Notes under the pieces: model-generated
What the model saw: only the letters and a program-made list of their open reading frames with translations
Told to the model about the DNA's origin: nothing
Database searches by the model: none
Shown: positions 24,231 to 35,126 of the stretch, piece by piece
Layout of the letters: every line of letters starts with the position of its first letter
Numbering within the stretch: position 1 is the first letter of the stretch
Source: Ruegeria arenilitoris
Lineage (GTDB): Bacteria; Pseudomonadota; Alphaproteobacteria; Rhodobacterales; Rhodobacteraceae
Reading direction: 5' to 3'
Assembly: GCF_013032445.1 (NCBI RefSeq)
Contig: NZ_WQCA01000002.1
Coordinates: forward strand, 310,001-374,000
DNA length: 64,000 bases
Translations under genes and position numbers: made by a program

Positions 24231-24635
24231 CTTGCCCAGATCGCTCCGTTGGTAAAGCCCGCAGCGAACATTCATTCGTGGCGCAGCATTCGAATAAATG
24301 GGCTCGCTCCCGACATTCTCTGCATTCCGTCTCAATGGCAACTGAGCTGTATTGGCGCGCCGGTTGCTGAGCACTTAGACGAACCGTTCACTCAACCGGA
24401 GATCGCTTCACATAACACCCATTCAGTGATGTTCTCGGTTCGTTACGTGAGCCGGTTTCAACTAAAACGTGTGGCGTTTCAGCACGAAGTGCGGGAAGCG
24501 GACTTTAACTACGCGTGCGAAGAGCTTAAGTTCACGGTCATGAAACCGTACATTCGATTCCTGCCCTGTCCGCAATTTGCCCCGGCGAAAGAGTTCATCT
24601 GACTAGGACGCAGGCTGTAGTGACGGCGTCGTAGA
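24231..24635. other. Intergenic region, nothing recognised
   Basis: About 400 bases between the LysE/DUF2000 genes and the membrane-protein gene. A 117-codon frame (24249-24602) has no recognisable motif and starts on a non-ATG codon, so it is left out. This is the likely left boundary of the atypical block that follows. Confidence 0.55.
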
Positions 24636-26000
24636 ATGCCTCACTTTGCGATTTCAAGGGACATCAATATCGAACAGTTTCTCACTTGGTTGCAGCAAGC
24701 CTTCAACAATCGTGAATTAGCCATTGGCCTGTGGATCATCCTTGGCCTCTTGTTTTGTATTGCTAAGGTAGATCTCCGAAATAGTCTCTGGAGCGTCGCT
24801 AAGGCGCTTATTGCCCCGAGGCTGTTGCTGTTCTTCGGCATTGTTGCTCTCAATGTAGTCGCACTGTGCTGGCTATTGGCAGAAGTCAGGTTGTGGTCAA
24901 AGACCCAGGTGCCACCCACTGTTTTGTGGTTTGTAATGGCCGGCTGCGTTTTTGCTGGTCGTGCATTGCAATCGAAGGAAGACGATCAGTATTTCCGAAA
25001 CCTGTTTCGGGGCAGTTTGAGGCTCGGAGGTATCTTTGAATTTATCGTGGTTGCCAACACCTTCAGTCTGACGACCGAGTTGGTCCTAACCCCTGTCCTC
25101 TTCTTTTTGGCAGCTACTCTGGCTTTCGCGAGCACAAAACCAGAGTACGCGAAAGCAAAGTTCTTTCTGGAGTTCATCCTGGCTGCCTTTGCCATTGTTC
25201 TAGTCTGGAACTCAGTGTCATCGATTTGGTCACAGCCAGATATCTTCTTCACGACTGATACGGGTCGCAATTTCGTTCTACCGATCCTGCTGACCGTCGG
25301 AAGCATCCCAGTGTTTTATGTGCTGTTTTGCTATTCTCACATTGAACAAGCCCGTATCCAGATTGATCAAAATGCCTTTCAGTCTGACGACCTCAAAGGG
25401 TATGCACGTAAACGCTTCTTTCTGATCTTCCCACTGCGTCCCTGGCTTCTGCGGCGGGCAACACGCCAATTCCATACACTCCCTGCAAAAACCAATGCAG
25501 ATGTGGACCGGATCATCGCCGATATTCTGAACTACGAACGAAACGAGGAAGACCCACCGACCGTCGACAAAAGGCTGGGTTGGAGCCCTTTCGAAGCCAG
25601 AGACTTCCTTAGTGAGCAGGGATTGAGAACAAACGACTACCACAAGGGCCACGATGAATACTGGGCTAGTTCAGAATATGTCGAGCTTGATAGTCATATC
25701 CTTCCGAACAAGGCTGTCTTCTACGCCGAGGGACAAGAAGGTGTCGTTACCACGCTCAAACTAACCGGGAAGTTCATGGATGGTTTCGACAACGGAGAAG
25801 CAATCCAGAGGCTCAAGGTGATCGGTGCATTACTTTGCGAAAAAGCTATCGGGCGCGGTGACATCGCAATTGATTCACTCATTCCAAATTCCCAAGTGTT
25901 TGAAAACGAAATGACCATCGATGGAACAGCAATAAGGGCTTGGGGTGAACGGTATCCGAGCGACATGGGCTTTGAAGTTATCCTGACCCTATCTCGATGA
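24636..26000 (+). CDS. Uncharacterised membrane protein at the head of the KAP/STAND block
   Basis: A 454-residue protein not matched to a known family. Hydrophobic segments include LAIGLWIILGLLFCIA, LLLFFGIVALNVVALCWLL, PTVLWFVMAGCVF, and others up to about residue 240, giving roughly seven helices. After that comes a soluble C-terminal part of some 200 residues with a basic stretch (KRFFLIFPLRPWLLRR) and a folded-looking end. It lies 75 bases before the KAP NTPase gene. The start (TTG, CTG or ATG codons nearby) is uncertain. Confidence 0.65.
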   Translation: MPHFAISRDINIEQFLTWLQQAFNNRELAIGLWIILGLLFCIAKVDLRNSLWSVAKALIAPRLLLFFGIVALNVVALCWLLAEVRLWSKTQVPPTVLWFVMAGCVFAGRALQSKEDDQYFRNLFRGSLRLGGIFEFIVVANTFSLTTELVLTPVLFFLAATLAFASTKPEYAKAKFFLEFILAAFAIVLVWNSVSSIWSQPDIFFTTDTGRNFVLPILLTVGSIPVFYVLFCYSHIEQARIQIDQNAFQSDDLKGYARKRFFLIFPLRPWLLRRATRQFHTLPAKTNADVDRIIADILNYERNEEDPPTVDKRLGWSPFEARDFLSEQGLRTNDYHKGHDEYWASSEYVELDSHILPNKAVFYAEGQEGVVTTLKLTGKFMDGFDNGEAIQRLKVIGALLCEKAIGRGDIAIDSLIPNSQVFENEMTIDGTAIRAWGERYPSDMGFEVILTLSR

Positions 26001-26075
26001 GTATCAGTATAAGCACGGCCCCCGTTTTTCTGAGAATGGACACCCCCTGTGGGGCACAACAACACGAGATATGCC

Positions 26076-28250
26076 ATGAGTAACTTTGACGACGTTCCAA
26101 TCAACACCCCCGACAAAGATCGATTTGGGTTTGACCCATTCGCCAATGCGATCAGCGATTGCATTCGTAGTATTGAGAACCCTCTTGGCAGCGTCGTGGC
26201 CATCTATGGTCCTTGGGGCTCAGGGAAGAGTAGCGTTATCAATCTTGTCCGGCACCATCTTGCGAATGATGCACCCGATCTTGATGCAATCAGCTTTCCG
26301 GCGTGGATGTATCGAACCGAAGATGCGCTGGCCGTGGGGTTCTTCAAGGAACTCTATGCTGGGCTCTCACCCGTTCTGTCGGACCAGAAAAAGGCCGCTG
26401 GAGCCCTCCGAAAGTTGGGGGCGAACCTTGCAGGCGCAAGCAGCCTTGCAGGTATGGCTGTCGGCTTGTTTGCAGGGTCACTTGGAGAGAAAGCAACGAC
26501 TGCAACCCTGGACGCACTAGGTGGCTTCATCGAGCAGGGTGAAACAGCGGAGGACCTACAGGCAACTCTAGCAGACGCCCTTCGTGAAGCGGGGAAGAAG
26601 TTCCTTGTAGTCATTGATGATCTGGACCGCCTTTCACCAGAGGAGGCGCTGGTCATCTTCCGGTTGGTCAAGTCTGTAGGACGGCTTCCAAACGTGATGT
26701 ATCTCTTGGCATATGACCGAGAGACCACTGAGCAGGCCGTTGCACGTCGGTTTCCGTCTGAAGGTGCGCATTACCTTGAGAAGATCATCCAAGCGGGGTT
26801 CGAGCTTCCTCAACCCGATCAATCGCACTTGAACGTTATGATGGGTGAGGTGCTGAATGGTTTGGCGGCTGATCTACCTGCCATTGATCCGGTCGAGTTT
26901 GGAAATTTGTTTCATTCCATCATGGTGCCGGAGTTAAAAACGCCACGGGATGTATTACGGTTGGCGAATACACTCTCGATCACCATCACCCCTATCAAGT
27001 CAGATGTCTTTTTTCCGGATTTTGTGAGTCTTGAGACTCTGCGAGTGTTCCGGCCAGGGGTGTATAGGGCCATACGACAGAACAAATCAGTCATCCTAAA
27101 CGCTGGTCAGAACGATAGGTATGACCAGCGTGATGCCCTTTCTGCACAATATACATCCATGCTTCTGAGCAGTGAACCTGAAGAGGACCATGGTCAGCTT
27201 CGACAAGCCCTCATGAGGCTGTTCCCTCAGTTGCAGAATGTCTTCGCGAACATGTCTTATTCCGGCACCAGGGAATGGGCTCGTCAAAGGCGGGTTTGTT
27301 CAACCGAGCACTTTGATACCTACTTCCGGTTTTCTGTGTCCCCCAAGACGATACCAAAGGCAGAACTAGACTATCTTCTCGATGCGTCGCGGACGGTTGA
27401 AGAGATACAGAACCGTGTTCGGGAGGCAATTGGGATCACTCAAGCCGAGGGGCGAACCAAAGCCTCTTATGTCCTTGATGAGTTGACGGCTCACGGACCT
27501 AGCGTCTCCTTGGAACAAGGAGAGAAGCTGCTGACCGCATTGTTTGGCATAGCTGACGAACTGTTCTTGGACCAAGATGAGGGACGCGGTTTCGCATCAT
27601 TCGGCGATAACAGGTATAGATTGCACTGGCTTTTGCGGTCCATCCTTTTGGATCGGACGACACTCCAAGAAAGATCGGAGATGCTCGCCAGAGCGATTGA
27701 GGGCGCGACCCTGCAATGGCACCTCGACTTTAGTAACTCAGCTTGGGGTGATTACCATCCAAGTGGTTCAGACAGCGATCCTACGCCTGAAGACAATACG
27801 CTTACGACTGAAGACGTGGCCGAGCAGCTTCAGGAAAAATCACTCGAAATGCTCCGCGCAGCCGCCGCCGACAACACAATGTTGCCTGCGAAGAACCCAG
27901 CCCGCCTTCTCTTTGATTGGGACAGATTGCAGCCTGATGGGGCTGGTGAGGTCATGGCCTACACAACTCAAGCATTGAGGGACGACACGAAGCTCTACCA
28001 ACTCGCTTCGGCTTTCCTTGGGAAATCATACAGTCATGGTATGGGAGGTTTCGGTGGCGCACCTGGCGATCTCGTGCAACGAGAGAACGACCGCGCACAA
28101 GTGGATGGAATTGACCGACTGCTGGATGAGAGCGAGTTCAGACGGCGGTTGAGTGAAGCCCTTCAAGGCGATGCCCTCGATGAATCGCAAAAGTCTACCA
28201 TCGGTCGGTTTTTGGCTGCATGGGATCGACGCGACGCTGGTGAGGATTGA
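26076..28250 (+). CDS. KAP family P-loop NTPase
   Basis: A 724-residue KAP NTPase. Walker A is GPWGSGKS (residues 45-52), followed by the family segment FPAWMYRTEDALAVGFFKEL. A hydrophobic stretch at about 117-135 (NLAGASSLAGMAVGLFAG) matches the membrane helix inserted in many KAP proteins, so it may be membrane-bound. Walker B is FLVVIDDLDRL (176-186), then FRLVKSVGRLPNVMYLLAYD. The rest is helical. KAP proteins include the phage-exclusion protein PifA. The ATG at 26076 is chosen; a GTG at 26049 would add nine residues. It lies between a membrane-protein gene and a large NTPase gene. Confidence 0.85.
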   Translation: MSNFDDVPINTPDKDRFGFDPFANAISDCIRSIENPLGSVVAIYGPWGSGKSSVINLVRHHLANDAPDLDAISFPAWMYRTEDALAVGFFKELYAGLSPVLSDQKKAAGALRKLGANLAGASSLAGMAVGLFAGSLGEKATTATLDALGGFIEQGETAEDLQATLADALREAGKKFLVVIDDLDRLSPEEALVIFRLVKSVGRLPNVMYLLAYDRETTEQAVARRFPSEGAHYLEKIIQAGFELPQPDQSHLNVMMGEVLNGLAADLPAIDPVEFGNLFHSIMVPELKTPRDVLRLANTLSITITPIKSDVFFPDFVSLETLRVFRPGVYRAIRQNKSVILNAGQNDRYDQRDALSAQYTSMLLSSEPEEDHGQLRQALMRLFPQLQNVFANMSYSGTREWARQRRVCSTEHFDTYFRFSVSPKTIPKAELDYLLDASRTVEEIQNRVREAIGITQAEGRTKASYVLDELTAHGPSVSLEQGEKLLTALFGIADELFLDQDEGRGFASFGDNRYRLHWLLRSILLDRTTLQERSEMLARAIEGATLQWHLDFSNSAWGDYHPSGSDSDPTPEDNTLTTEDVAEQLQEKSLEMLRAAAADNTMLPAKNPARLLFDWDRLQPDGAGEVMAYTTQALRDDTKLYQLASAFLGKSYSHGMGGFGGAPGDLVQRENDRAQVDGIDRLLDESEFRRRLSEALQGDALDESQKSTIGRFLAAWDRRDAGED

Positions 28251-28363
28251 TGATCCTGGGCTCGACTTGAGCCGGTTTTCCATTGGCCAACACCAAGCCT
28301 GCGTCGCTAGGTGTTGATGGGCGGACATGCTAGACCTGCAACTTGTTGTATTCAGGTGGTGAG

Positions 28364-31300
28364 ATGGCGATCTTCGACATTGAAAAGGATGACTTGCTTC
28401 GGTTGTCCGACGAACGACTGGAAGAGTTGATAGCACGTCTTGCTGAGGCGGAGGTTGCCGCACTTGGCCATAGCCCTGCGAGTGTGAGTTGGTCAGGCTC
28501 GATTAAGGCCCCTGATGAAGGCATCGATATTCATGTTCAGGTGGAAACAACAAAACTGGAAACGAGCTTCCTAAGCCGCCCAGATACCGTTCTCCAGTCC
28601 AAGAAGGACTCTATGCCAAAGTCCGCAATTGCGGCGGAGATGCTAAAGGAAGCAAAACTGAACCCGACAATCGCAAACCAGGCGAAGATCGGCGGCAGCT
28701 ACATCATTGTGAGCCTAACCGACGATTGTTCACCGCAGATGAAGAAGCATCGCCTCAACGCCATGCGGGCGGCTGTGGCCAATGATCCCAACAATGAGAA
28801 CATCCACCTCGATTTCTTCGACCGTTCCAAGCTGGTTCAATGGGTTCGACAGCACCCTTCGGTGTTGCTGTGGTTGAAAGGCAAGCTCGGTCAAGGATAT
28901 TCGGGATGGCAACCTTATGGGGCCTGGAGTAATCCCCCAAAGGGATCACCTGACACGCTCATCTCTGCTCCAGGCGTAACTGTCCATGTGCCGACTGAGC
29001 GAGGTCAGGAGCTTTCAATCGAAGACGCAATAGAACCTATGCGTCGTCTGATACGCACATCAAACAAGGCGATCCGTATCACGGGGCTTTCAGGTGTTGG
29101 TAAGACTCGGATTGTCCAAGCACTCTTTGACGAAACTGTGGGTAACGATCCACTCGATAGGACTATCGCTGTCTATGTAGACACAGGACAAGACCCTGAT
29201 CCTTCAGCGTCGGCTATGCTGGACCGTTTGATTGCCGAGGGGCGTCGCGCCGTTATGATCCTCGACAACTGCCCATCCGATCTGCATTCGGCATTGGCAA
29301 GCAAGGTGTCGGCTGCAAGTAGCGATGTCAGCCTGATCACGGTTGAATACGATATCAGAGACGACAAACCGCAAACCACTGAAGTGATCCACATCGAGGC
29401 GAACGGCCCAGAAGTCGCCGAAGAACTCCTACTACGGCGGTTTCCTGAAATCGGCCAGGGAAATGCACGGCGGGTCGCCGAGTTTGCCGATGGTAATTCC
29501 AGGGTAGCTTTGGCAATTGCGGAACGGGTCGAACAGGGTGAGAGCCTAGCTCAACTGTCGGATGCGGAATTATTCGATCGTCTTTTTCAACAACGGAAGG
29601 CAGAAGATGGTGATCTTCGCGAACAGGCGGAGACTCTGTCGTTGGTGTATTCGTTCTCGGTTTCTGACCCAGAAGTCGGTCACAATGAACTGGAAGTCTT
29701 GGGCTCGATTTCAGGGCACTCAAAAAACCAACTATTCCTAGCCACAAAATTGCTGGCGGACAGGCATGTTGTGCAAAAGAGAGCGCATTGGAGGGCAATA
29801 TTGCCCCATGCCGTCGCAAACAGGCTGGCAAGCTCCGCGCTGGAGAGCGTCCCCGTAGAAACACTGAGATCGACACTTGAATCGCCTGGGAATAGTCGGC
29901 TTCTGATGTCGTTCGCTCACAGGCTTGGCTTGATGCATGATCATCCTATTGCCAAGGAGATCGTTGAGGCTTGGCTGCAACCGGATGGTTTGTTGGGCCG
30001 TATTTCAAACCTCGATGAGAATGGATCGAGGATACTGGACTACATTGGGCCCGTGGCACCAGACGCGCTGCTTGATCGGATCGAAGCCGAACTCACCTCT
30101 CCCGATTTTCAGGGGATGGAGCCGAAGCAAAATCCGCGTAGGACCACGATCCTCAACCTGCTACAGTCCTTGGCATATGAGGCACATGCTTTTGACCGCT
30201 GCATTTCACTTCTGATCCGCGTTGCGGACCATGAAGATGAAAACAACAACTATGATGCCGTAAGAGACAAGATTTCGGGATTCTTTCAACCCTACCTATC
30301 CGGCACTCATGCTTCACTGGCACAACGCCTCGCCATCGTAGAAGGATGTCTAAGTTCTGAAGATGCGGCACGACGTTCCTTGGGTCTGAAGCTGCTCTCG
30401 ACGGCACTGGATGGACCACCATGGACTGGCTTCGGTCTTAACGAGTTTGGGGCACGGCCAAGGGACTATGGCTACCGTCCCAACCACGACCAACTCGTTG
30501 AGTGGCGCGCTACTTTCATCAATCTGGCAGTGCGGCTTGCAAATTCAGACGACGAGGACATCAAGAGCCGTGCACGGCAAGTACTAGCGAATAAGTTTCG
30601 CAGTCTGTGGCATCAGGAGGCAATGCGGGAAAAACTGGTCGAAGCGGCTCGGGCGATCAAAGATCACGAGCCCTGGGGAGAAGGCTGGAAGGCCGTTCGC
30701 TCAATCATCTATTTCGACCACACCCGGCAAAATGACGAACCTGAGCAGGAACGACTTCCCCAGGACCTGGTCGATCTGGATCGGGAACTGGAACCTCGCG
30801 ACCTGATTGCAAAGATCAAAACCTACGTGCTTGGCAAAGGGCATGATCATTGGGCGCTTGACGACGAGTTCGACGACAGTAGCGATGACAAATACCGCGC
30901 GGCTGAGGATCGGCTAGCCGCAAGGGCAGCGGATTTAGGTGAGAGCTTTGCAGCGTCTGACCATCAACTCGATGAGTTGGGGTCTGACCTGTTTTCAAAC
31001 GAATGGATGCCGTATCGCAAGGCGTTTGGGATCGGCCTTGCTAAAGGGGCCCACAATTATCGTGAAGGTTGGCAAGGCTTGCTGAAACACCTCACTCGGC
31101 CCTCCGGTTCGAACCACGACCTAGCCGTGATTGGTGGCTTTATCGAAGAGGTTGCCGCCAATGACAATGCGATTTCGAGAGAACTCTTGGACGAATGTGC
31201 GGAACACTCGGAACTTCGAAAAGTCCTTGTGGGCCTGCATCCATGGGATGACTTCACAGAGAGTGATCTGGATCGGTGCATGGCCCTACTCGACAATGAA

Positions 31301-32218
31301 GAAACTCGGACTTGGATGTTCGGATCTATCCTTTGGCGGGATAACTACGCACACCTACCGTCTGAACGTATGTTGGAGCTTGCACAGAAGCTACTGGCCA
31401 AGTCAGGCGGTGACGACACATTGCTTGACGCACTCAGTATGAAACTGCACGGAAAGGACCCTGCGGACGATACGTTAGGACCTGCACTAAGAAAACTTGG
31501 TTTGAAGACCGCAACGAAATCCCTGTTGGCCGATCACAGCGACCCTGGTGGCAGCAAAGATCATAGCATGGAAAATGTCATCAAGGCCGCACTTACCTTC
31601 GACGGTAATGACGCCGAAAAGACAGAGTGGGTGGACACTATATTCTCTGTCGTTGATGAGCGTTACGGCTACATTCATTCGTTCGAGAAAGCGATTGAGA
31701 CTACAGCAGGGCTGATGCCCAAGGCATTTCTGAATCGTGTTTTCCAGGGGACAGAGGATCAGCAGAATCGACGTACTTTCTTCATTCGTCATGGGGGCAT
31801 TCGGCGCTGCCCACTCTCCAAGGTCGATGTGACCGACCTGATTGAGTGGTGTAAGCAACGGAAAGATGCGGATGTCTGGGGTTTGGTCGCGTCAGGTATC
31901 AGGCTTTGGGAGAAAAGCGATGGGAACGGGGATGGCTCTTCCATCACGTCATCCGCCGTTGAGTTTCTTGAAGCCGCCCCAGAGCCCGGGCAGGTTCTTC
32001 ATGCTTACGCAGATCGTGTAACTCCATCGTCGTGGTCGGGGAGCCGTGCAGATGTCATGCAGCCAAGGGCTGATGCCATTGCCGAACTAACCAAGCATGA
32101 GCGGGAAGAGATAGCTCAGGCCGCTAAGTCGGTGTCAGATCGACTTGCGATGGAAATCGAACGCGAACGGGTCCGTGACCGACAACGAGACGAGGAACGC
32201 GAACAGCGATTTGAGTGA
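28364..32218 (+). CDS. Large protein with nuclease-like N-terminus and STAND-type NTPase (defence candidate)
   Basis: A 1284-residue protein of three parts. Residues 40-170 resemble a PD-(D/E)xK nuclease fold: GID at 53-55 and QSK at 78-80 could be the acid and Q-x-K positions. A P-loop NTPase follows, Walker A GLSGVGKT (241-248) and Walker B VMILDNC (297-303), the order seen in STAND proteins. Residues 500-1250 are long, apparently helical repeats that would serve as sensor. The last 30 residues are a charged coil rich in Glu and Arg. Avs-type antiviral proteins have similar nuclease-STAND-repeat order, but the family is not identified. Start ATG 28364 has a GGTGGTGAG site; a TTG at 28343 is less likely. 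Confidence 0.7.
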   Translation: MAIFDIEKDDLLRLSDERLEELIARLAEAEVAALGHSPASVSWSGSIKAPDEGIDIHVQVETTKLETSFLSRPDTVLQSKKDSMPKSAIAAEMLKEAKLNPTIANQAKIGGSYIIVSLTDDCSPQMKKHRLNAMRAAVANDPNNENIHLDFFDRSKLVQWVRQHPSVLLWLKGKLGQGYSGWQPYGAWSNPPKGSPDTLISAPGVTVHVPTERGQELSIEDAIEPMRRLIRTSNKAIRITGLSGVGKTRIVQALFDETVGNDPLDRTIAVYVDTGQDPDPSASAMLDRLIAEGRRAVMILDNCPSDLHSALASKVSAASSDVSLITVEYDIRDDKPQTTEVIHIEANGPEVAEELLLRRFPEIGQGNARRVAEFADGNSRVALAIAERVEQGESLAQLSDAELFDRLFQQRKAEDGDLREQAETLSLVYSFSVSDPEVGHNELEVLGSISGHSKNQLFLATKLLADRHVVQKRAHWRAILPHAVANRLASSALESVPVETLRSTLESPGNSRLLMSFAHRLGLMHDHPIAKEIVEAWLQPDGLLGRISNLDENGSRILDYIGPVAPDALLDRIEAELTSPDFQGMEPKQNPRRTTILNLLQSLAYEAHAFDRCISLLIRVADHEDENNNYDAVRDKISGFFQPYLSGTHASLAQRLAIVEGCLSSEDAARRSLGLKLLSTALDGPPWTGFGLNEFGARPRDYGYRPNHDQLVEWRATFINLAVRLANSDDEDIKSRARQVLANKFRSLWHQEAMREKLVEAARAIKDHEPWGEGWKAVRSIIYFDHTRQNDEPEQERLPQDLVDLDRELEPRDLIAKIKTYVLGKGHDHWALDDEFDDSSDDKYRAAEDRLAARAADLGESFAASDHQLDELGSDLFSNEWMPYRKAFGIGLAKGAHNYREGWQGLLKHLTRPSGSNHDLAVIGGFIEEVAANDNAISRELLDECAEHSELRKVLVGLHPWDDFTESDLDRCMALLDNEETRTWMFGSILWRDNYAHLPSERMLELAQKLLAKSGGDDTLLDALSMKLHGKDPADDTLGPALRKLGLKTATKSLLADHSDPGGSKDHSMENVIKAALTFDGNDAEKTEWVDTIFSVVDERYGYIHSFEKAIETTAGLMPKAFLNRVFQGTEDQQNRRTFFIRHGGIRRCPLSKVDVTDLIEWCKQRKDADVWGLVASGIRLWEKSDGNGDGSSITSSAVEFLEAAPEPGQVLHAYADRVTPSSWSGSRADVMQPRADAIAELTKHEREEIAQAAKSVSDRLAMEIERERVRDRQRDEEREQRFE

Positions 32219-32522
32219 AATCTCTCTACGAACTCATCGACTATTCTTTGGTTTGTAAGTTCAATGTGATAAATGGGCTGGAATGCAACAAATGGCAGCA
32301 ATACGGGATGCGAGCGTAGTTTTTTGGTTTTTCGTCCAATTTCAACTAAGAGCCGCTTGAACTTCCTCAGCTATCGTCGGATAGTGTAGTTGGCCTGAGG
32401 CGTAGGCCGGTGTGCCCGCCATGCGAAGCAAAGCAACGCGAAATAAATTTTTTGGATACCATGCCGTTGGCAGGGTCCGATAAGCAGCGGGCACCTTTTC
32501 GGATCCAGTTCGGATATGGATC
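32219..32522. other. Intergenic region, nothing recognised
   Basis: About 300 bases after the large NTPase gene. No gene or strong hairpin is seen. It presumably contains the promoter of the split gene that follows. Confidence 0.55.
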
Positions 32523-33671
32523 ATGAAACCGACACATTCACTAAAAAAACTGAAAGAACTGTCAAAGCGCTATGCACGAGCGCAGCAGGTTCCTTTGCAC
32601 CAAGCACGTGACTTTGTTGCCAGGCAGCTTGGGTTCCCACATTGGAACGACGTCACAAAGGAGCACAGAACAGGTTGGCTTCCAACGCAGGCGCAACTGT
32701 CGAGCATCGAAAGCCTGCTCATAAACTCTCTTCCGGGAGATGAAGCTGGCCGACCCAAACATGGCTCTTATATTCAAACCTCGATTTTCGAAAACGATGT
32801 TCAACACGGAAAGATCGACGGGCACGAATACCAAATCTCAGTTTCACTGGGCGATGTTCATTTGTACGGGACAGGATGGCACCTTTACGTGCCGGAAGCA
32901 CCGAACAAGGCACCTCGCCTTGAGATCGCTGAACAGATCGAACAAGAGGCACCCGTTCACGAACCGCAATTTCAGAAACAGGCACTTAGTATTGCACTCA
33001 AACGGGCGGAGCAAGTTCGTGCCGGTATTGCATCTGACTGGCCGAGACGATCTACAAAACCTGACAAAGAAGGTGTCGCCCGTCATCCGATAAATGGCGC
33101 TGAGTCGAATAAATGGTATTGCCTGCATTGTAATTCATCGATGACGGGCAAATAGATTGCGAAGAGCCTTTGGCATTGCCCAACTTGTGGCGCCTCTCCG
33201 CTCGATATCCACGTGAACGCTTGGTGGCTTGAAGATGGTGATGCAAGACCCGAACCAATCGCGGACAAAGACATTCCCCGGAGGCCTGACTTGGTTGTCG
33301 ATGTCAGAGACACACGGCTGAAATTAGAGCTCAATCCCGAAAAAATTACGCTGTTGATCCGAAGCGCACTTGTAGAAGACGCTTCAAACGCAAGCGAGCG
33401 TTTAGGTGCTCTATTTGCAGATATCAACGTTCATGAAGACAATGACGTCTGCATCACCCTTGATGTAGACCTTTGGCCGGAACTGAAGGAACCTGTGTCC
33501 GCTCTAGCAGTAGCGGCTCTTCTAGGAGTGAAGGTGGAGCAAGAGATTTGCTTACGAGAGTTGCCTTTTGCTTGGCCTGGTTTGGGTGAGCACACTTCCA
33601 GTACTGTGGAGTACACGGAAATGATGCTCAAAGCTTACGCCAGCCAAAGGTCAGATAAAGCCGTCGAATAG
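32523..33671 (+). pseudogene. Zinc-ribbon protein gene split by an in-frame amber codon
   Basis: One frame runs from ATG 32523 to the stop at 33669-33671, broken only by TAG at 33153-33155. The stop falls inside what looks like one zinc ribbon: WYCLHCNSSMTGK, stop, IAKSLWHCPTCGAS, two CxxC pairs 17 codons apart on either side. The N-terminus (LKKLKELSKRYARAQQVPLHQ, then HWNDVT) recalls a small helical domain found at the start of some glyoxalase-superfamily-related proteins. The C-terminal half contains DIHVNAWWLEDGD and an acidic-strand region. Either it is a recent nonsense pseudogene (CAG to TAG is possible), or two proteins are made, or the stop is read through. A strong hairpin follows at 33682. 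Confidence 0.75.
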
Positions 33672-33681
33672 CCAAAGATCG

Positions 33682-33711
33682 GAAGGCTGTAGGATGTTTC
33701 CTGCAGCCTTC
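33682..33711 (+). terminator. Hairpin terminator after the split gene
   Basis: GAAGGCTGTAGGA (33682-33694) and TCCTGCAGCCTTC (33699-33711) pair over 13 positions with a TGTT loop and one G-T wobble. A short GCCTTT follows. It probably ends transcription of the KAP/STAND block. Confidence 0.7.
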
Positions 33712-34631: not shown

Positions 34632-35126
34632 ATCGGCAAGAAAGCTGGCTCAAACAATCAAACACATGACCTGCGAGGGCAAAGGGCAAGAACCTCAGCA
34701 ATCGTGATCCCAAATGCCAGGCAGCAAGTTTGTTCACGTTCTGATCTTAAGAACCACCGTCAGAAGAGCGAATTCGCAAGCTTATGCTCCAAATTCGCAC
34801 TCTTATGGTTCATTCACAATTGAAAAAAGTGGTGAGCCGTGCAGGATTCGAACCTGCGACCCACTGATTAAAAGTCAGTTGCTCTACCAACTGAGCTAAC
34901 GGCCCACTCTTTTGTTTGGATCTTGTCGATCCGTGGCGCTCTCTAAGGCATTTTCCCGACCGGGTGCAAGTCCTTATTTTACGCCTCGTTTCGCCTTAAC
35001 TTAACTTGTTTCCAGCGTCCCGATAGGCGGCCTAATTAGGCAGGTGGCGCGGGGGGGTCAACCCCTTTTTTCAGGAATCTTCACCGCAGGGTGGATTCCT
35101 TTCCAACGCAGGGTTATATGCGCGCC
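34632..35126. other. Spacer holding tRNA-Lys and the dapF promoter
   Basis: Apart from the tRNA at 34830-34905 no gene is seen. The stretch 34906-35126 contains a GC-rich block (GCGCGGGGGGGTCAACCCC near 35047-35065) and leads into dapF. Confidence 0.6.
34830..34905 (-). tRNA. tRNA-Lys (anticodon TTT)
   Basis: A 76-base cloverleaf on the minus strand with encoded CCA. The acceptor ends pair GGGCCGT with ACGGCTC, the T arm reads GCAGGTTCGAATCCTGC and the anticodon loop is CTTTTAA, giving TTT. A T-run follows the 3' end. Confidence 0.96.

Follow-up and report, generated by a model that had tools for sequence, protein, structure and literature searches.

We analysed a stretch of 64,000 nucleotides from Ruegeria arenilitoris (contig NZ_WQCA01000002.1, positions 310,001 to 374,000; hereafter the window), in which three genes, labelled in order M, K and S, encode a membrane protein, a KAP-type NTPase and a nuclease-STAND protein, respectively. 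The block that holds them (24488-32223) is probably a horizontally moved anti-phage cassette with two layers of defence, S forming one and K, together with M, the other. The most economical account would be that this block has moved among roseobacters as a unit. A defence role is likely because both large proteins (K and S) align almost end to end with models of defence proteins, and the KAP/PifA and STAND labels given in a preliminary description of the window are right. The same description had proposed a new module of four genes; its parts are not new, since S belongs to the PD-Lambda-4_A family and K to the PifA family, and its fourth gene is interrupted and lies outside the block (see below). 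While the main proteins come from known defence families, what appears new is the pairing of S with K, the protein M, and signs that the sensor half of PD-Lambda-4_A proteins can be exchanged.

Recurrence of the block in other genera

Scanning the GTDB species genomes for S identified 19 loci, 16 of which have at least 4 kb of upstream sequence (locus numbers, L, denote the loci fetched for comparison). Three loci with less than 1 kb upstream (L003, L006 and L015) were excluded from this count, and three of the 16 (L007, L009 and L011) share one common layout and are probably not independent. K stands directly 5' of S in 3/16 loci, namely in Aliiroseovarius sediminis (L002), Roseovarius atlanticus (L004) and Pseudooceanicola sp. 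HF7 (L008). M is present in two of them (L002 and L004), where the genes follow each other as M-K-S with the same order, spacing and orientation as in the window, and where the three proteins have 84-90% identity to their counterparts. The preliminary description had suggested looking for the genes together in other genomes, and they are indeed found together in other genera, all three at two loci and K with S at a third.

The block has sharp edges. Using blastn, homology to the window extends over 24491-32219 in L002 and over 24488-32223 in L004, and no DNA homology was found between these two loci and the 8-36 kb of the window outside the block. Between L002 and L004 themselves the common DNA consists of the block and about 130 bases past S, and nothing else; the L002 block is preceded by TnsB- and TniQ-like genes. 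At L008, K and S occur without M: the conserved segment 5' of M (Table 1) is kept and homology then resumes at the start of K (26050). This upstream segment is alike in L004 and L008 over 140 bases at 95.7%. M may either have been lost at L008 or gained elsewhere. The segment is probably a shared promoter or leader of M and K, and its staying before K when M is missing points to shared M-K expression.

S also occurs alone. At five loci with whole S genes (L001, L003, L005, L012 and L017), homology begins at 28332-28363 and stops at 32214-32232; in the S-alone loci that hold the start of S, it begins 0-32 bases before the start codon. Taken together, the sharp edges, the S-only loci and L008 show that the block is a mobile unit, that S is also mobile by itself and that M is removable. 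Distribution within the family is scattered: in the sample searched, S is found in 5/198 genomes (a total that includes its own and one with a 33-residue stub) and K-like proteins, mostly weak KAP matches, in 23/198 (own included). Across the class, M is found in 1/289 genomes, which is the own genome.

Two degraded copies of S were also seen. In a genome of the same family (G187), positions 1463-1600 of L028 hold a 138-base remnant, made up of 38 upstream bases and the initial 33 codons, which is a probable deletion scar. In Gemmobacter caeni (L010, 10001-12829), a relative covering residues 1-943 is split into several short frames and has apparently decayed.

Protein S is a full-length PD-Lambda-4_A relative

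The PADLOC model PD-Lambda-4_A (PDLC03991) matches S with 2036.5 bits, residues 1-1284 aligning to positions 1-1283 of the 1283-position profile. Pfam gave only sub-threshold NTPase matches (the best being NPHP3_N, with 22.9 bits vs a cutoff of 24.8), so the STAND-type label rests on invariant motifs and domain layout. When S and 13 relatives are aligned, D51, G53, D55, Q78, K80, G241-K247 and L300-D301-N302 are invariant in 14/14 sequences; residues 51-80 hold what we take to be a PD-(D/E)xK-like active-site motif. Identity of the 13 relatives to S, which spans 31-97% across sections, is 52-97% at residues 176-330 and 31-90% at residues 1121-1284.

For structure comparison, an AlphaFold2 model of residues 1-720 was built from 15 sequences. 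With the N-terminal model, VIA-align 2 ranked Avs4 with phage portal (8dgf_B) second by Z, the low-depth model aligning colinearly at residues 4-176 on chain residues 2-175 (133 aligned, rmsd 3.3) with a Z of 8.0, a middling value of a level that the tool calls common. The match is more telling than this Z alone because the partner is a defence nuclease, likewise N-terminal in a protein with the same layout. Residues 423-720 of the model resemble armadillo/HEAT-type repeats. S would have the layout nuclease, STAND NTPase and helical repeats, which may place it beside the Avs-type sensors. Searches of solved structures by sequence, including searches with the S and K profiles, returned no solid match for S (best E 0.51) or K (0.053) and none for M.

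The S protein of L008 is 83-94% identical to that of the window at residues 1-640 and 46-59% identical at residues 641-1284. By this comparison it is a mosaic, in which the effector and switch are kept and the repeat half is changed, as expected if the repeat half picks the target (i.e., a swappable sensor). For the PD-Lambda-4_A family, the invariant positions thus offer residues that can be tested, and the mosaic copy marks a border between domains.

Proteins K and M

K carries the Pfam KAP domain (PF07693) at residues 19-303 (E 2.6e-41, 142 bits vs a cutoff of 20), within which lie the motifs GPWGSGKSS and FLVVIDDLDRL, which we take to be its Walker A and Walker B; the KAP NTPase assignment of the preliminary description is thus confirmed. 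The PADLOC PifA model matches K with 377 bits (E 4.9e-113), K residues 5-697 aligning to positions 7-701 of 720. The own genome (G000) also encodes a second, distant KAP-type protein (26%) at G000:C23:377952-379166.

M, as had been described, is a multi-pass membrane protein: six hydrophobic segments (scores 1.36-2.66) lie within residues 27-231, followed by a basic stretch and a C-terminal domain. It had no match in PADLOC, NCBIfam or PHROGs and a sub-cutoff match only in Pfam; the search of defence collections proposed earlier for each protein was therefore successful for S and K (in PADLOC) and not for M. M would accordingly be an undescribed membrane protein of an unnamed family. Its identity is 85% in L002 and L004 and 26% in an Arcobacter plasmid and a Salmonella plasmid. 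Across the phylum, an M profile found matches in 5/378 genomes, the own genome being one of them; in three of the five the match is confined to the C-terminal domain.

Small proteins with the C-terminal domain of M were found at L109 (4905-5513), L110 (4649-5293) and L111 (4980-5504), with signal sequences as read by eye. Those at L110 and L111 weakly resemble Pfam DUF6030 (below cutoff), and L111 also has phage-type genes, again by eye. Viral contigs yielded a single relative of M: on an IMG/VR contig (L064, 4597-5499), this truncated relative directly follows a P4-type alpha primase/helicase gene, as judged by eye.

Distant relatives and comparison with known defence systems

Relatives of S were found in 43/72,556 plasmid records, and the best plasmid relative of K has 36% identity. 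Neither S nor M, when used as queries, matched any of 50,697 phage records, and a phage origin of these parts was rejected on this basis. DNA like the Providencia relative of S is present in 179/5,426 Escherichia coli genomes. Relatives of S have Fic, HNH, HEPN or AbiP2-type reverse transcriptase genes less than 5 kb away; near K relatives we found a SIR2 gene, or a pair of cysteine desulfurase and DUF4007 genes. Using tblastn (E <= 1e-4), no K or M was found at the distant S loci fetched and no S or M at the distant K loci fetched, several of these loci being short or at contig ends.

The closest described system is PD-Lambda-4, which reportedly comes from the screen of Vassallo et al. 2022. 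S is full-length on the A model; the S relative of E. coli STEC434 scores 2107 bits on PD-Lambda-4_A. In E. coli 55989, PD-Lambda-4_B (544 bits) follows the S relative (A) after 45 bases, and in E. coli STEC434 and 536 an AbiP2-type reverse transcriptase stands in the downstream flank instead of B (the flank being the part compared). In contrast, the own R. arenilitoris genome has no B, and K and M precede S instead. The cassette is therefore not PD-Lambda-4 proper, which was ruled out because B is absent. PD systems were obtained by an experimental selection for phage resistance from E. coli DNA, each taking its name from the phage used (PMC9519451, accessible text), and the same accessible text does not name PD-Lambda-4 itself. 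A review table places PD-Lambda-4 under P-loop NTPases (PMC10952713, accessible part). Our literature searches by name, as far as the returned listings go, met no mechanism for PD-Lambda-4. Likewise, no listing was recognised as describing the M-K-S gene set, and the set can be called unpublished within the limits of those listings.

With PifA of plasmid F, K shares the KAP P-loop NTPase and nearly the whole length of the PifA model. It differs in being distant in sequence (377 bits), with a membrane-protein gene before it and a nuclease-STAND gene after it. According to the accessible text of one source, F PifA responds to T7-like Gp1.2 or to capsid protein, and membrane damage is proposed (PMC8594841); another, in its accessible part, describes a phage range more complex than Gp1.2 alone (PMC11990801). 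Avs4/AVAST proteins, nuclease-STAND sensors of phage portal or terminase, share with S the order of parts. The N-terminal S model aligns with Avs4 at the middling Z given above; S has no Avs match by sequence, and Avs membership by sequence was rejected after PADLOC, NCBIfam and hhalign. Avs1-4 sense phage packaging proteins and then kill by nuclease (PMC12931631, accessible text). Whole-genome searches with the Avs2 and Avs4 models gave no match in the own genome among the two of six first-look candidates that were scored there. Finally, QatABCD also contains a KAP-type ATPase, and K reaches 56.3 bits on the NCBIfam QatA model; this is far under the cutoff of 600, and no Qat model matches S, M or either fragment of the fourth gene.

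Proposed function and alternative explanations

We propose that S would combine sensor and effector in one protein of the nuclease-STAND-repeat type that needs no partner. The helical repeats at its C-terminus would bind a phage component, upon which the NTPase would bring S into an active form, probably an assembled one. DNA would then be cut by the PD-(D/E)xK-like domain at the N-terminus, stopping the phage and probably also the infected cell. As a KAP ATPase resembling PifA, K would sense a phage protein and then either damage the membrane or arrest the cell; M, probably made from the same leader, may anchor K or serve as its membrane partner, and could be lost. In the block, S is joined by a KAP protein of the PifA type and by a member of an unnamed membrane protein family, a possible clue to a membrane action of PifA-like proteins. 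More tentatively, and with considerable doubt, M could be a new partner in the membrane for KAP ATPases of the PifA type, M-K-S a two-trigger cassette with one arm directed at the membrane and the other at DNA, and S a protein that is retargeted by swapping its C-terminal half while keeping nuclease and switch.

A number of results weigh against the two-layer cassette. M was found together with K at three loci only (the window, L002 and L004), and distant relatives of M neighbour an AAA_13 gene (Arcobacter plasmid), an integrase nearby (Salmonella plasmid) or a P4-type primase gene (viral contig); the secreted look of the small C-terminal-domain proteins fits badly with a cytosolic contact between M and K. 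The membrane-inserted helix claimed earlier for K is possible but marginal, since the only candidate is a stretch of weak hydrophobicity between the Walker motifs (residues 118-136, Kyte-Doolittle 1.53). A promoter scan gave 4 sites vs a shuffle mean of 6.0, none above background. The kinship of S is likewise qualified: no Avs model in PADLOC or NCBIfam matched S at E <= 1, hhalign against three Avs2-like proteins gave a probability of 0.6% (i.e., no profile kinship), and PD-Lambda-4_B (PDLC03992) was found in 0/5 genomes or records, own included, while a control E. coli genome was positive. Structure prediction, recommended in the preliminary description, yielded an N-terminal domain of S that is better than the rest, but poor models of S overall (mean pLDDT 57.4) and of M (51.6), the latter too poor for use. 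Foldseek found no match to the S model at E <= 0.001, and the Avs4 alignment is of middling Z.

A less probable but quite possible explanation is that unrelated defence genes, stacked by chance, moved from one ancestor block and spread in roseobacters. It overlaps with the two-layer cassette and departs from it in denying that M serves K. Each gene does occur apart elsewhere, and the alike identities of M, K and S to their L002 and L004 counterparts are as expected of one common ancestor block. Harder to reconcile with a chance stack are the sharp, near-identical edges in two loci with differing flanks and the retention, at L008, of the segment 5' of M before K. At the other extreme, M, K and S might constitute one obligate system, with M as membrane effector or sensor, K as switch and S as nuclease arm. 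This we consider unlikely, despite the same gene order, spacing and orientation in three genera at 84-90% protein identity and the short gaps (75 bases between M and K, 113 between K and S), given that K adjoins S in only three, and M is present in only two, of the 16 other S loci counted among the 19 found. K and S stand without M in L008, the distant loci of K lack S and M and those of S lack K and M (several loci being short), and a weak hairpin-like element separates K from S. The single membrane-coupled abortive system envisaged in the preliminary description, with K so seldom next to S and distant M relatives beside other genes, is accordingly unproven.

Roles of S and K outside defence, in stress or plasmid maintenance, seem very unlikely to us. 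Since PifA stops few phages, its main functions have been proposed to lie elsewhere (PMC8594841, accessible text). Against such roles stand the nearly end-to-end matches of S and K to defence models and a scattered distribution, both of S within the family and of the Providencia-like DNA among E. coli genomes. We therefore retain the two-layer anti-phage cassette as the best explanation.

The fourth gene and other features of the region

Features of the block are collected in Table 1.

Table 1. Features of the M-K-S block (window coordinates).
Feature	Position	Strand	Description	Remarks
Conserved segment 5' of M	24491-24623	+	133 bases at 78% in L008 (blastn)	Four-locus alignment
M	24636-26000	+	454 aa, multi-pass membrane protein with C-terminal soluble domain	ORF intact
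M, C-terminal soluble domain	25581-25997	+	Residues about 316-454
K	26076-28250	+	724 aa; alternative start 26049 gives 733 aa	ORF intact
Terminator-like hairpin, K-S gap	28259-28273	+	Weak	Consensus scan
S	28364-32218	+	1284 aa; alternative start 28343 gives 1291 aa	ORF intact
S, D51-x-G53-x-D55 ... Q78-x-K80	28514-28603	+	Residues 51-80, within N-terminal domain 1-175	Alignment
S, Walker A to Walker B	29084-29269	+	GLSGVGKT (241-248) to MILDN (298-302)
S, helical-repeat region	29630-32215	+	Residues 423-1284, probable sensor	Less conserved

The "zinc-ribbon" gene that had been counted as the fourth intact member of the set consists of two frames, 32523-33155 and 33213-33671, separated by an in-frame TAG at 33153-33155, and it falls beyond the point near 32223 where the conserved block stops. 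A four-gene module was ruled out on these two grounds. The gene (32523-33671) is an alphaproteobacterial plasmid-type gene with a zinc-ribbon motif. The best relative of its first half (69.5%) is in Marinovum algicola, and relatives of that half occur in 39/72,556 plasmid records, 21/39 of them from Rhizobium and Sinorhizobium.

The hairpin in the K-S gap comes from a scan that found 12 hairpins in the region vs a shuffle mean of 9.6 (sd 3.4), which is not above background; its letters are resembled in L004 and L008. G+C content is 0.50-0.55 at 8-34 kb of the window vs 0.57-0.62 at 0-8 kb and 34-56 kb, and the low-G+C stretch stops near a tRNA-Lys at 34830. Genes 5' of 24.2 kb, read by eye, are sugar-polymer and ordinary metabolic genes, no integrase was seen by eye among the listed frames at 24-35 kb, and an Rfam scan at gathering threshold found tRNA only. 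Integration at the tRNA-Lys was rejected since no 14-base piece of the tRNA region is repeated within the window, as was the motif GCGGAC(A/T)TT as a signature of block edges, being present at some edges and missing from others. The tRNA-Lys and a tRNA-Thr (63281) are 28 kb apart in the window vs about 0.2 kb in genome G046, which belongs to the same genus, and in that comparison one flank is reversed, which denotes a rearrangement near the tRNA genes.

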